Shown here: positions 38,554 through 45,569 of the stretch, piece by piece | Layout of the letters: each line of letters starts with the position of its first letter | How positions within the stretch are numbered: the stretch's first letter is position 1 | DNA from: Candidatus Rokuibacteriota bacterium | GTDB taxonomy: Bacteria > Methylomirabilota > Methylomirabilia > Rokubacteriales > CSP1-6 | Reading direction: 5' to 3' | DNA length: 45,569 bases | Assembly (NCBI GenBank): GCA_003220335.1 | Contig: QHSB01000081.1 | Span: 1 to 45,569, forward strand | Made by a program: the position numbers and the translations under genes | Notes under the pieces: generated by a model | Seen by the model: only the letters and a program-made list of their open reading frames with translations | What the model was told of the DNA's origin: nothing | Database searches by the model: none

Positions 38554-40854
38554 CTACTTGATGGCGACGGCTTTGACTTGCTTGACGTCGGTGAGGCCGT
38601 CGAGCGCCTTGAGAATGCCGTCCTGGACGAGGGTGGTCATCCCGTCGGCCTTGGCCGTGGTGACCATCTCCACCACGCGCGCCTTGTTGGCGATCAGGCG
38701 CTTCATGCCATCGTTGGCCACCAGCAACTCGTGGATGCCGGCGCGCCCGCGGTATCCGGAGTTGTTGCAGTTGCCGCAGCCCTTGCCGCGGAAGAGCACG
38801 AAGTCGTCGTTGTAGTCGATGCCGAACTTCGCCGTCTCTTCCTTGCCGCCGAAGGCGTGCTCCAGCTCGGCGTACTCGTCCTCGTCGGGGTGGTACTCCT
38901 CCTTGCACTCGGTGCAGATCCGCTTCACGAGACGCTGGGCCAGCACGGCCAGCAGCGCGTCGGAGAAGTTGAACGGATCGAGACCCATGTCGAGAAGCCG
39001 GATGACCGTCTCCACCGCGCTGTTCGTGTGCAGCGTGCTCAAGACGAGGTGACCGGTCAGCGAGGCCTCGATGCCCGTCTCGGCCGTTTCCTCGTCGCGC
39101 ATCTCGCCGACCATGATCACGTCGGGATCGGCGCGCAGGAACGCGCGCATGGCCTGCGCGAACGTGAAGCCGATCTTCGGCTGCACCTGCACCTGCCGCA
39201 GGCCGTACTGCGTGATCTCGACGGGATCCTCGGCCGTCCAGATCTTGCGCTCCGGCTTGTTGATGTAGCCGAGCACGGAGTGCAGGGTCGTCGTCTTGCC
39301 CGAGCCGGTCGGCCCCACGCACAGGATCAGCCCGTACGGCTTTTCGGCCGCCGCCTTCATCTCCCTGAGGTTGCGGTCGAGCATGCCGAGCTTGTCGATG
39401 GGGATCGGCTCGCTGGCCGAGAGGATCCGCATGACGACGTCCTCGTTGCCGCCCTGGGTCGGCACGGTGGCCACGCGCAGCTCGATCTCGCGGCCGTCCG
39501 GTACCTTGAACTTGATCTTGCCGTCCTGCGGCTTGCGGCGCTCGGCGATGTCGAGCATGGCCATGATCTTGATGCGGGCGACGAGGGCGCGCCGGAAGGC
39601 CCCGGGAACGCGCTGGTACTCGTTGCACGCGCCGTCGACGCGCAGCCGGATCATCGTGTCCTTCTGCGACCCGTACGGCTCGATGTGGATGTCCGAGGCG
39701 CGCGCCTTGAACGCGTCCACGATCACCTGGTTGGCGAGCCGGATGACCGCGCTGTCGTTCTCGTCGACCTCCGAGCCGCCGGCGTCCATCTCCTTCTCGG
39801 CCGCCGCCTCGTTGCCGAGATCGGAGAGGATGTCGCTCATGCTGCCGCGCGGGCCGCTGCCGCCCTCGCCGCCGACCGCGGCCAGGAACTGCTGGATGTC
39901 GTGTTTGAGGCCGACGGCCAGCTGGACCTTGTGACCGCGCATGACCTGGTGGATCGAGTCGACGCGCTGGATGTCTTGCGGGTTGTCGATCAGCACGACG
40001 GTCGAGCCGTCGTGCTCGCGCTTGAGCGGCAGCCAGAGGTTGCGCTTCAGGAACTCCAGCTTGAGGTCCCTCAGGAGCTCGGGCGACGGAATGACCCGCT
40101 CGCTGAACTCGATGAAGGGCACGCGATAGAACTGGCTCAGCGACGCCCCCAGCTCACCCTTGGGGATCTTGTACTGGTCCATCAGAATCGCCTCGACGTC
40201 GGTGTTCTTGTGACGGGCGGCGGCGATGGCCGTGTTGATGTCGTCCTGGCTCATGAGCCCCTGGGCGAGCAGGTAGTCGAACTTCGTCCCGCGGCGCTGA
40301 CCGAGCTGCTGCTGGTTGTGGAAGGCGACGCCCAGCGTCTTGGCGATGCGCGCGACGTTGAGCTCGTCGTCCTTGGTGAACCGGCCGCCCTTCTTCTTGT
40401 TCAGCAGCTGCATCACGCCGACGACCCGGTTCTCGTGCAGGATCGGCATGCCGAGGATCTGCGTGGTGCGGTAGCCGGTCTTCTTGTCCCAGGACGAGTC
40501 GAACCGCAGCTTGGCGTTGATCTTGGTGAGCTCGCCGGTGTCGTAGGCGTCGGCGATGTTGACCGTTTGGCGGCTGGTGGCCACGAAGCCCGCCACCGAG
40601 CTCTCGTTGACCGGGAGCCGGATCTCCCTGACCGTGTCCAGGGCGAGGAACTTCGAGTAGAGCTCCTTCTTCTCCATGTCCGCCGCGTAGAGCGTCAGGC
40701 GGTCGGCGGCGAGGAAGGCGAGAATCTCACCCTGGATCTCGATGAAGATCGTGTCCAGGGTCTTGGCGGAGTGGATCCGGTCGATCAGCTGGACGAGCTT
40801 CTGCTCGTTGGCCAGCCTTTCCTGCAACACCAGAACGGAGTCCTGGACCGCCAA
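38554..40854 (-). CDS. GAF-containing GspE/PilB-type secretion/pilus assembly ATPase (GAF, MshEN, GspE)
   Basis: GPTGSGKTTTLHSVLGYIN Walker A; LRADPDVIMVGEMRDEETAETGIEASLTGHLVLSTLHTN; CTECKEEYHP...CGNCNNSGY zinc motif; TTG at 40854 after GGAGGGAC, alternative ATG at 40917. Confidence 0.92.
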   Translation of the reverse strand: MAVQDSVLVLQERLANEQKLVQLIDRIHSAKTLDTIFIEIQGEILAFLAADRLTLYAADMEKKELYSKFLALDTVREIRLPVNESSVAGFVATSRQTVNIADAYDTGELTKINAKLRFDSSWDKKTGYRTTQILGMPILHENRVVGVMQLLNKKKGGRFTKDDELNVARIAKTLGVAFHNQQQLGQRRGTKFDYLLAQGLMSQDDINTAIAAARHKNTDVEAILMDQYKIPKGELGASLSQFYRVPFIEFSERVIPSPELLRDLKLEFLKRNLWLPLKREHDGSTVVLIDNPQDIQRVDSIHQVMRGHKVQLAVGLKHDIQQFLAAVGGEGGSGPRGSMSDILSDLGNEAAAEKEMDAGGSEVDENDSAVIRLANQVIVDAFKARASDIHIEPYGSQKDTMIRLRVDGACNEYQRVPGAFRRALVARIKIMAMLDIAERRKPQDGKIKFKVPDGREIELRVATVPTQGGNEDVVMRILSASEPIPIDKLGMLDRNLREMKAAAEKPYGLILCVGPTGSGKTTTLHSVLGYINKPERKIWTAEDPVEITQYGLRQVQVQPKIGFTFAQAMRAFLRADPDVIMVGEMRDEETAETGIEASLTGHLVLSTLHTNSAVETVIRLLDMGLDPFNFSDALLAVLAQRLVKRICTECKEEYHPDEDEYAELEHAFGGKEETAKFGIDYNDDFVLFRGKGCGNCNNSGYRGRAGIHELLVANDGMKRLIANKARVVEMVTTAKADGMTTLVQDGILKALDGLTDVKQVKAVAIK

Positions 40855-40931
40855 AGTCCCTCCCCGGTGGCTGAAATCTGCTTGATCAGAATAGCAGAAT
40901 GGCCGGGTTGCCCGCACCGGGGTTGTCGGGG

Positions 40932-42617
40932 TCAGAACACCGGTTTCTCGACGTAGGAGCCCCAGATGTTGCGGAGGCGGTTGACGATCTCCCCCATCGA
41001 TGCCCTTGCCCGGACCAGGGCGATGGTCGGCTCCATGAGGTTGGCGGCGGGGTCCGACGCCGCCCGCGCGAGGCGGTCCAGCAGCCCCGCGACCTCACGC
41101 TCGTCACGCCGGGCGCGCACGGCGCGCAGCCGGGCCACCTGGCGGGCCTCGGTTTCGGGGGGCACCCGGTGAATCGGCATGTCCGCGGCGGCGGTGGCCG
41201 GTTCGACGTACTTGTTGACCCCGATCACGGGCGCGTCGCCGGAGGCCTTGCGGCGCGCGAACGCGTAGGCCGAGTCGGCGATCTCCCGCTGGAACCAGCC
41301 GGCCTCGATGGCGGCGACGGTACCCCCCATCTCGTCCACGTTTTTCAGGATCGCGAGCACCTCGCGCTCGATGCGCGTGGTGAGCGCCTCGACGTAATAG
41401 GAGCCGCCGAGGGGGTCGACGACGTTGGGCACGCGCGTCTCGTCCGCGATGATCTGCTGCGTTCGCAAGGCCAGCTTCATCGCCTCCTCGGAGGGGATGG
41501 CGTACGCCTCGTCCAGGCCGTTGGTGTGCAACGACTGCGCGCCGCCCAGCACGGCCGATAGCGCCTGCAGCGCGGTGCGCACGACGTTGTTCATCGGCTG
41601 CGCGCGCGTGAGCGTGGCCGCCGCCGTCTGGCAGTGGAAGCGCAGGCGCATCGACTCCGGCCGGGTGGCGCCGAAGCGCTCCTTCATGATCCTGGCCCAC
41701 ACGCGGCGGGCCGCGCGGAACTTGGCCGCCTCCTCGAAGAAGTCGGCCTGGGCGACGAAATAGAAGGCCAGCCGCGGCGCGAAGGCGTCCACGGCCACCC
41801 CACTCCTGACAACCTCCTCGACGTAGGCGATGCCGTTGGCCATGGTGAAGGCGACCTCCTGCACCGACGTCGCCCCCGCCTCCGAGATGTGATAGCCGCT
41901 GATGTTGACCGGGTTGTAGCGCGCCATGCGTTCGGCACAGAACACGATCATGTCGCGCATCAGCCGCAGCGACGGGCGGATCGGGAAGATCCACTCCTTC
42001 TGCGCGACGTACTCCTTGAGGATGTCGGCCTGCACGGTGCCCGAGAGGCGGTTGAGGTCGAAGCCGCGCGCCTGCGCGACCGCGATGTACATGGCGAGCA
42101 GGATCCAGGCGGTCGGGTTGATCGTCATCGAGACGGAGATCGTCTCGAGATCGATCCCCGCGAAGAGCGCCTCGACGTCCTCGATGGTGTCGACGGCCAC
42201 GCCCTCGCGTCCCACCTCGCCGAGCGACCGGGGATCGTCCGAGTCGTAGCCCATCAGCGTCGGCATATCGAAGTCGCACGACAGCCCCGTCTGTCCCTGC
42301 GCGATGAGGTACTTGAAGCGGCCGTTCGTGTCCTCGCCGGTGCCGAAACCCGCGATCTGCCGCATCGTCCAGAGCCGGCCGCGGTACATCGTCGGGTAGG
42401 GCCCGCGCGTGAACGGCCAGCGTCCCGGCCACCCGATGTCGCTCCACGGCGTGTCGGCGACGTCCTCGGGCGTGTAGATGCGCTGCACGGGCAGACCCGA
42501 CCCCGTGCGGTACTCGGAACGGGCCTCGGGCTGGCGCCCGACGAACTCCGCCAGCTCGCGAGCCTCCCATGCCTGCCGCTCCGTGCGGATTCGATCGATC
42601 GCCTCGGGATCAAACAT
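40932..42617 (-). CDS. hcmA: Acyl-CoA mutase large subunit, 2-hydroxyisobutyryl-CoA mutase (HcmA)-like
   Basis: Methylmalonyl-CoA mutase superfamily; [13 protein letters not shown] (Ile88), [15 protein letters not shown] (Asp115), EYVAQKEW (Gln206); no C-terminal B12 domain. Confidence 0.82.
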
Positions 42618-42677
42618 AGCTTCTTCCTCATTTGGCGTCGGGGCGGCTTCGCGGGGCTCCGCCGCCCGACGGTCGGG

Positions 42678-44096
42678 CTAAGAGTGCGTGATGCCTTTCT
42701 TGTAGACATCTCGATCGTCGATGACCCGGCGCGCCTTGAATTCCGTGCGCGGCAGCGCGCCCTCCGGCACCAGCTCGATCAGCGGGGTGACCCCCAGCCG
42801 CGCGCGCAGCCGCTCCTTCATGCGCGCGGCGAGGGCGGCGCGGGGCGCCTCGGCGGCGTGGCTCGCCGCGTACTCCGCGCGCACGAGCAATTCGTCCATC
42901 GTCTCGCGCCGCGAGACGATCACCCTGAACTCGCCGCCGAAGCCCTCGATGGCGCGCAGCGTGTCCTCGATCGCGCCCGGATAGATGTTCTCGCCGCGCA
43001 CGATGAACATGTCGTCGATCCGCCCGTAGAGACCCAGTGGCAGGCGCGGGTACGTGCGCCCGCACGGGCACGGCTCGTCGGTCCAGCGCGCGAGATCGCC
43101 GGAGACGAGGCGGATCATCGGCTGCGACGTGCGCTCGAGATGCGTGTAGACGGGCGTGCCCTCGCCGCCGAACGGCACGGGCGCGAACGTCTGGGGATCG
43201 CAGACCTGCGTGTAGACGATGTCCTGCCAGAGGTGCATGCCGGTGCGCCGCCGGCACTCGCCGTTCGTCATCCACGGGGTCATCTCGGCCATGCTGCCCA
43301 TGTCGATGCACGCGCCGCCGAAGGTGTCCTCGATGAGCCGCTTGGTGGCCGCGATGCCGGCGCCGGGCTCGCCGGAGAAGAACAGCGTGCGGAAGCCGAA
43401 GTCGCGCGGCTCGAGGCCCTCGCGGCGCGCGGTCTCCGCGAAGTGCAGCGCATAGGACGGCGTGCCGTAGAAGGCCGTCGGTCGGAGGTCGCGCGCCCAC
43501 TGGACCGCCATCAGCGTCTGGCCCGGCACCCCGGCGCCGAACGGGAACACGGCGGCGCCGAGCCGCTCGCAGCCCTTCAGCGCGCCCCACGAGCCGAGGT
43601 ACAGGCTGAAGAACGACGCGATCAAGACGCGGTCGTCGGGCCGTAGGCCCGCGGCCCAGAGGACGCGCGCGTGGGCCTCGCCGATGCGCTCCCAGTCGTC
43701 GCGGCCGACGCCGAACACCGTGGGGCGGCCGGTGGTGCCGCTGCTGCCGTGGATGCGCGCGATCTCGCGCGGCTCGAGGCAGAGATAGTCGCCGAAGGGT
43801 GGCGCGGCCGCCTGCGCGGCACGCAGGTCCGCCTTCTCCACGACCGGAAACCTCGCGAGATCCGCCAGCGTGCGCAGTGTCGCCGGCGCCACACCGGCGG
43901 CCTCCCAGCGGCGGCGATAGAAGGCGCTGCGCTCCCACGCGTACTGCACCTGGGCGCGAAGCTTGGCGAGCACGATCTCGTCGCGCGTTTTCGGATCGGC
44001 GCACTCGAGCTCGGGCGCCCAGTACTCGGCGTCCGGCGCCGGCCGCCACACCGGATCGTAGCGCGGGGGCCAGGACGGCGCGGCCGGCGTGGTCAT
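42678..44096 (-). CDS. Phenylacetate-CoA ligase-family acyl-CoA ligase
   Basis: [17 protein letters not shown]-loop; [44 protein letters not shown]. Confidence 0.88.
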
Positions 44097-44500
44097 GTTC
44101 GCGGCCGCGCGGCGACCGCCTCGCGCACGCGCCGCACGACCTCGTCGGGCGGCGTGTCCTGCAGCACCACATCGGACACGCCGCACGCCCTGAGCGCAGG
44201 CACGTCCTCGTCGGGAATGACCCCGCCGACGACGAGCACGGTGTCCTCCGCCTGATGCTCGCGGAGCAGCTGCGCGATCCGGGGCACGAGCGTGAGGTGG
44301 GCGCCGGAGAGGATGCTGATGCCGATCGCGTCGACGTCCTCCTGGACGGCGGCCGCGACGACCTCTTCGGGCGTGCGGTGCAGGCCGGTGTAGACGACGT
44401 CCATGCCGGCGTCGCGGAGCGCGCGTGCCACGATCTTCACGCCGCGGTCGTGGCCGTCGAGCCCGACCTTGGCGATCAGCACGCGGATCGGCGGCGCCAT
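44093..44500 (-). CDS. hcmB: Cobalamin-binding small subunit of acyl-CoA mutase (HcmB-like)
   Basis: [42 protein letters not shown] (DxHxxG); [20 protein letters not shown] overlap with ligase. Confidence 0.9.
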
Positions 44501-44537: not shown

Positions 44538-45569
44538 ATGACCAGCGACCCCGGTTTCTTCCGTGACCTCGCCTGGGTCATCGTCGCCGCCGTCGCCGGC
44601 GGCGCGCTGGCGTGGCTCGCCCGCCAGCCGCTGATCCTCGGCTACGTCGTGGGCGGCATTCTCGTCGGCCGCTTCACGCCAGGGCCCACCGTGTCCGACA
44701 CCCACACCTTCGAGCTGTTCGCCGAGATCGGGGTCGTCCTGCTGATGTTCTCGGTCGGCATCGAGTTCTCGCTGCGCGACCTGCTGCGCGTCCGGTGGGT
44801 CGCGCTGCTCGGCGGACCGCTGGGCATCGTGCTCACGGCCGCGCTCGGCGCCGGCGCCGGGGTCGTGCTCGGCTGGCCGCCCGGGCAGGGGCTCGTCATC
44901 GGACTCGTCATCTCCGTGGCCAGCACGATGGTGCTGGTCCGGCTGCTCATGGACCGCGGCGAGCTGCACACGCGCCACGGCCGCGTCATGATCGGCATCT
45001 CGCTCGTCGAGGACCTCGCCGTGGTCGCGCTGACGGTCTTGCTGCCCGCGCTGGGCGCGGGCGTGACCGAGCGGCCTATCGCGGTGGCGATCGCGTTCGG
45101 CAAGGCGGCGCTCGTGCTGGTCCCCGCCCTGTTCCTGGCCGCGCGCGTCGTCCCGGCCCTCATGCGCCGCGTGGCGCGAACGCAGAACGACGAGCTGTTC
45201 CTGCTCGTCGTCCTCGCCATCGGGCTCGGCACCGGCGCCCTCACGCAGGCGGTGGGGCTGTCGGTCGCGCTCGGGGCCTTCCTGGCCGGGCTCATCATCA
45301 GCACCTCCGACTACGCGCACGAGACCATCGCGCGCCTGCTGCCGCTGCGCGACGTCTTCGTGGCGATGTTCTTCGTCACCGTCGGGATGCTGGTCGACCC
45401 CTTCGCCGTGGCCGCCAACCTGCCGCTGCTGGCCGCCCTCATCGTGTTGATCGTCGTGGGCAAGGCGGTCATCCGCTTCGCCATCGTGCGGCTCTTCGGC
45501 TACCCCTGGGCGACGGCGGCGCGGGTCGGCGTCGGGCTCGCCCAGATCGGAGAGTTCTCGTTCATCCTC
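44538..45569 (+). CDS. Kef-type/CPA2 cation:proton antiporter, 3' truncated by window
   Basis: [54 protein letters not shown]; open to window end (absent from ORF track). Confidence 0.92.

Follow-up and report, generated by a model that had tools for sequence, protein, structure and literature searches.

Gene layout of the operon

Three genes, arranged in the order hcmB-hcl-hcmA, lie near one end of the window, by which we mean the whole stretch of 45,569 nucleotides analysed (Table 1). The original prediction had described three minus-strand genes running from 44500 to 40932 with an ATGA overlap of the first two, and we were able to confirm both the coordinates and the overlap: hcmB runs from an ATG at 44500 to a stop at 44093, hcl begins with an ATG at 44096, and the four bases ATGA are common to the hcmB stop and the hcl start. 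The first gene was likewise confirmed to encode a cobalamin-binding subunit, since the DGHDRG motif is present and the top match of the protein is 4r3u_C.

Table 1. Features of the hcmB-hcl-hcmA operon and its neighbours
Feature	Coordinates	Strand	Best match
hcmB, small cobalamin-binding subunit, 135 aa, DGHDRG	44093..44500	-	PDB 4r3u_C, E 3.7e-52; PF02310
hcl, 2-hydroxyisobutyric acid-CoA ligase, 472 aa	42678..44096	-	PDB 6hdw, E 8.4e-174
hcmA, large substrate-binding subunit, 561 aa, Ile88/Asp115/Gln206	40932..42617	-	PDB 4r3u_A, E 4e-248
hcl-hcmA spacer, 60 bases; site of meaH (~1 kb) in canonical operons	42618..42677	-	
Na+/H+ exchanger-type transporter, divergent, truncated by window end	44538..45569	+	PF00999, E 3.3e-56
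GAF-MshEN-T2SSE (PilB/GspE-like) ATPase, GAF N-terminal to MshEN, directly downstream of hcmA	38554..40917	-	

The divergent transporter gene lies 37 bases from the start of hcmB and, as far as shown, its product is outside the pathway. The PilB/GspE-like ATPase gene (family c8) adjoins the operon across many rokubacterial genomes, a conserved arrangement; a functional link between the two is putative at most. Since the operon precedes this same ATPase gene in so many of these genomes, it is a settled chromosomal locus and not a recent plasmid gain. No source of 2-hydroxyisobutyric acid (2-HIBA), dedicated transporter or GntR regulator was found beside the operon, and promoter and terminator scans found nothing. 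The usual hallmarks of HcmA/HcmB, a DxHxxG small subunit and an operonic hcl, were observed, while two usual though not strictly defining features of 2-hydroxyisobutyryl-CoA mutase (HCM) operons, the meaH gene and an upstream GntR regulator, are missing here.

Identity of the mutase and the ligase

Pfam and NCBIfam matches of the operon proteins give superfamily names only. In PDB searches the large subunit matched chain A of 4r3u far ahead of the next entry, human methylmalonyl-CoA mutase (MCM; 1e-130), and its identity was 66% with Aquincola HcmA and 41% with MCM. HcmB is 65% identical to 4r3u_C, a 2-hydroxyisobutyryl-CoA mutase small subunit. The E-values against solved HCM-system proteins (4e-248 for the large subunit, 4e-52 for the small subunit and 8e-174 for the ligase) exclude a chance match and, together with conservation of the three-gene operon across dozens of genomes, show that the operon is not a product of chance.

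We take the known pocket sites of the superfamily to be Tyr89/Arg207 in MCM, Phe80/Gln198 in isobutyryl-CoA mutase (ICM) and Ile90/Gln208 with Asp117 in HcmA; in the HCM structure paper, Asp117 is reported to determine the (S) stereochemistry and Ile90 to shape the pocket. Ile88, Asp115 and Gln206 of the window protein align without gaps to positions 101, 128 and 219 of 4r3u chain A, which presumably represent HcmA 90, 117 and 208 plus an 11-residue tag. This bears out the earlier claim that the three residues stand at a constant offset of 2 from HcmA numbering. The Ile/Asp/Gln combination was found in 78 of 80 HCM loci, Leu replacing Ile in the other two, and is absent from MCM, which has Tyr/Ala/Arg at these positions. 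Where MCM has Tyr89 and Arg207 the window protein has Ile and Gln; with ICM it has the Gln in common, and carries Ile and Asp in place of Phe and Ala.

Phylogenetic analysis agreed with the residues. The tree comprised 68 mutases and, like our other trees, was built by a quick method with SH-aLRT as the only support measure. The window HcmA grouped with those of Aquincola and Methylibium in a clade of 63 rows (SH-aLRT 99), the exact base of which is not firm because the outgroup branches are long. MCM, the ICM-like copy of the same genome, a haloarchaeal sequence (Haloterrigena) and the Xanthobacter pivalyl-CoA mutase (PCM) candidate all lay outside it. Within the clade, a group of 28 rows (99) unites the window protein with sequences from Rokubacteria, Acidobacteria, Myxococcota and a small number of other taxa. 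Alignment and tree together, taken against MCM, ICM-like, HCM and PCM sequences, thus assign the large subunit to the HCM clade, as had been predicted; the outcome named beforehand as refuting, a position outside that clade, did not arise. The genome also encodes ICM-like (Phe/Ala/Gln, L002) and MCM-like (Ala/Arg, L003) large subunits, and the HCM is therefore not standing in for either. On the diagnostic residues and the tree placement, MCM and ICM were rejected as identities of the large subunit.

Two further observations concern other mutases of this kind. A locus on Sinorhizobium meliloti plasmid pB (2183-9081) encodes an HCM-like mutase of 57% identity with Val/Asp/Gln at the diagnostic positions, which sits at the edge of the HCM clade; its neighbours are an aminotransferase, MeaB, an enoyl-CoA hydratase and an AMP-binding enzyme, with no HCL, and it probably acts on a different substrate. 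In each of three genomes of the host's family (G088-G090), 10 to 14 matches to the mutase large subunit were found, so that B12-dependent acyl-CoA mutases are unusually expanded there.

The ligase gave a full-length match to 2-hydroxyisobutyryl-CoA synthetase (HCL; 6hdw), with 56% identity, as against 36% identity and an E-value of 1.4e-67 for phenylacetate-CoA ligase (PaaK). It groups with 6hdw in a clade of 47 HCL rows (SH-aLRT 100), outside which lie PaaK and the five best ligase paralogues of the same genome; within this clade it falls in a subclade separate from the characterised HCL. Both PaaK equivalog cut-offs were missed by a wide margin (for the NCBIfam equivalog, 276 bits where 646 are required). 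A PaaK identity was rejected on the missed cut-off and the tree placement. The forecast that automated annotation would mislabel these genes was borne out, since relatives carry the labels 'methylmalonyl-CoA mutase' and 'Phenylacetate--CoA ligase'. Such labels, and the superfamily-level domain matches, are what speaks for an MCM or ICM with an adjoining phenylacetate-CoA ligase, a reading that we consider extremely improbable given that the residues of MCM (Tyr89/Arg207) and of ICM-like enzymes (Phe/Ala) are absent, the mutase and ligase trees point elsewhere, and the genome has separate copies of both other mutases.

It is unlikely, though more plausible, that the chemistry is the same but that the enzymes naturally act on a compound related to 2-HIBA, for instance 2-hydroxy-2-methylbutyrate (C5) or some other short-chain branched acid, and not on 2-HIBA itself. 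The modest identity of the ligase to characterised HCL and its separate subclade would fit this, as would the use of such a mutase for butanone and pentanones by related sulfate reducers (PMC7888143); on the other side, the three diagnostic pocket residues are those of HcmA and the gene order matches that of 2-HIBA degraders.

Comparison with known systems places the operon close to Aquincola tertiaricarbonis HcmAB (4r3u), with which it shares the two-subunit layout along with clade, pocket residues and subunit identities. It differs in belonging to the separate Rokubacteria/Acidobacteria/Myxococcota subclade and in having no adjoining meaH. The ligase resembles HCL in length, clade and its position as operon partner of a mutase, and differs in its subclade; its specificity is predicted. 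The order hcmB, hcl, hcmA is the same in Methylibium petroleiphilum PM1, whose HcmA is near-identical to that of Aquincola, and in Xanthobacter autotrophicus Py2 (Xaut_5018-5021); unlike these operons, that of the window lacks meaH and a divergent GntR gene, and has no adenosyltransferase or TPP lyase after hcmA. The pivalyl-CoA mutase-type cluster Xaut_5042-5044 belongs to the same superfamily and has small and large subunits and a chaperone, but it lies on a very long branch outside the HCM clade, has other pocket residues and lacks an HCL-type ligase. Kyrpidia tusciae RcmAB, an (R)-preferring 2-hydroxyisobutyryl-CoA mutase, catalyses the same type of reaction (PMC7176365); by description it is only distantly related to HcmAB, and the window enzyme shares its Asp with the (S)-specific mutase.

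Loss of the chaperone gene meaH

The occurrence of hcl, the mutase genes and meaH together is a published rule (PMC7176365). The canonical order is hcmB-hcl-meaH-hcmA, with meaH between hcl and hcmA in L099, L100, L101 and most other loci, and in Methylibium, Xanthobacter and Agrobacterium a divergent GntR gene precedes these four. The absence of meaH, which the original prediction did not mention, was observed in the window operon and in 17 further loci with hcl directly before hcmA (18 in all). Well-supported branches of the mutase tree force at least five changes in the presence or absence of meaH; these counts depend on fragmented MAG contigs, although hcl and hcmA are contiguous in the loci without meaH. 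Sister pairs differ in this respect, for example L016, which lacks the gene, and L025, which retains it.

The operonic MeaH proteins and the genomic MeaB proteins fell into two separate clades in a MeaB tree (SH-aLRT 100), and the sampled Rokubacteria without the operonic chaperone, including the nearest relative, have MeaB of the genomic type only. All 53 genomes of the class with completeness of 90% or more and contamination of 5% or less gave a PF03308 match. The MAG of the window gave no PF03308 match, and a direct search for MeaB in it was also empty. The regions that border meaB in a relative correspond, in this MAG, to the extreme ends of contigs C130 and C720, so this absence is an assembly gap; a true lack of MeaB in this genome was rejected, as the locus falls between the two contigs. 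A search of HcmA columns for sites that track the loss of meaH revealed no convincing site.

The housekeeping MeaB is likely to act on both mutases. On balance we favour the view that Rokubacteria and some Acidobacteria and Myxococcota have a dedicated 2-HIBA pathway whose mutase has repeatedly lost its own G-protein chaperone and relies on the MCM chaperone MeaB or on none; this would be a recurrent natural loss of a metallochaperone that as a rule stays closely linked to its client. That meaH was lost because HcmAB of these bacteria needs no G-protein chaperone any more would also account for its absence from 18 operons and for the repeated changes in the tree, but we regard this as distinctly unlikely: every near-complete genome of the class has a PF03308 match, the one apparent lack of MeaB is a gap in assembly, and no HcmA column follows the loss.

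Proposed pathway and its distribution

Taken together, the clades, residues and gene order make it very probable that hcmB-hcl-hcmA is a 2-hydroxyisobutyryl-CoA mutase operon, predicted to convert 2-HIBA to 3-hydroxybutyryl-CoA. The broader proposal that the operon activates a 2-hydroxy (tertiary) acid and isomerises it to a 3-hydroxyacyl-CoA is supported by clades and residues as far as sequence allows. Hcl would join 2-HIBA to CoA, with conversion of ATP to AMP, and HcmAB, with adenosylcobalamin held by HcmB, would then carry out a radical 1,2-shift of the thioester group to give 3-hydroxybutyryl-CoA. Genes located elsewhere would supply the 3-hydroxybutyryl-CoA dehydrogenase and the thiolase that take the product on to two molecules of acetyl-CoA. 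Because the operon has lost its dedicated meaH, loading and repair of the cofactor would probably fall to the cell's single housekeeping MeaB, and the (S) form of the product is expected because Asp115, the counterpart of HcmA Asp117, is present. From residues and neighbours we infer the probable substrate (2-HIBA among C4-C5 tertiary acids), direction and stereochemistry, and chaperone use is likewise a prediction; the reaction is reversible and its direction is therefore not fixed. Conversion of 2-HIBA to 3-hydroxybutyryl-CoA by Hcl and HcmAB is established chemistry (PMC7176365, PMC13188929). An acidobacterial locus (L073, 1475-4316) supports the pathway, as its hcmA is followed by genes for adenylate kinase, thiolase and 3-hydroxybutyryl-CoA dehydrogenase, a compact set for 2-HIBA to acetyl-CoA, consistent with recycling of AMP and with the steps that follow the mutase.

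Some sister operons contain a further enzyme. In Rokubacteria AR44 (L015, 3292-4986) a thiamine-dependent lyase gene lies between hcl and meaH; the best PDB match of its product is AcHACL (7pt1, E 4e-124), and both its catalytic Glu493 and its C-terminal lid are conserved, residue roles being those described for AcHACL (PMC8760513). An AcHACL-type 2-hydroxyacyl-CoA lyase was also observed inside or beside the HCM operon in L014, L028, L082 and Methylibium, the last matching AcHACL at 3e-164. An additional link of the mutase to acetone and formyl-CoA is thus suggested for some of these bacteria. For the window, the corresponding reading, in which the operon is tied to acetone-dependent formation of 2-hydroxyisobutyryl-CoA, draws on these sister loci and is in our estimate very unlikely: the operon holds no lyase, and a search of the host genome for a lyase partner gave no clear counterpart, the best homologue (L109) having neither an equivalent of Glu493 nor the lid and standing nearer to oxalyl-CoA decarboxylase/HACS.

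The host is an uncultured Rokubacterium of soil. Its nearest HcmA is that of Candidatus Rokuibacteriota AR7 (93%), which a genome search assigns to the same genus. Among the 95 genomes of the class, about 42 encode a close HCM orthologue (62% identity or above), a count that rests on identity, Ile/Asp/Gln having been checked in the named loci and not in all of these genomes. No report of the pathway in Rokubacteria was found in the literature searched. What is new here is the Rokubacterial host and a modest operon variant, the loss of meaH; the kind of enzyme is already known.

These sequences add many new HCM and HCL enzymes for enzyme engineering, where natural diversity is requested (PMC11599936), and the loci without meaH beside sisters that keep it, such as L016 and L025, are ready pairs for testing how far a B12 mutase depends on a dedicated chaperone. 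Metabolism of 2-HIBA is known from few cultured bacteria and is often tied to fuel additives, its natural source being unknown (PMC7176365). The frequency of the predicted pathway in Rokubacteria indicates a natural substrate that is widespread in soil and groundwater.
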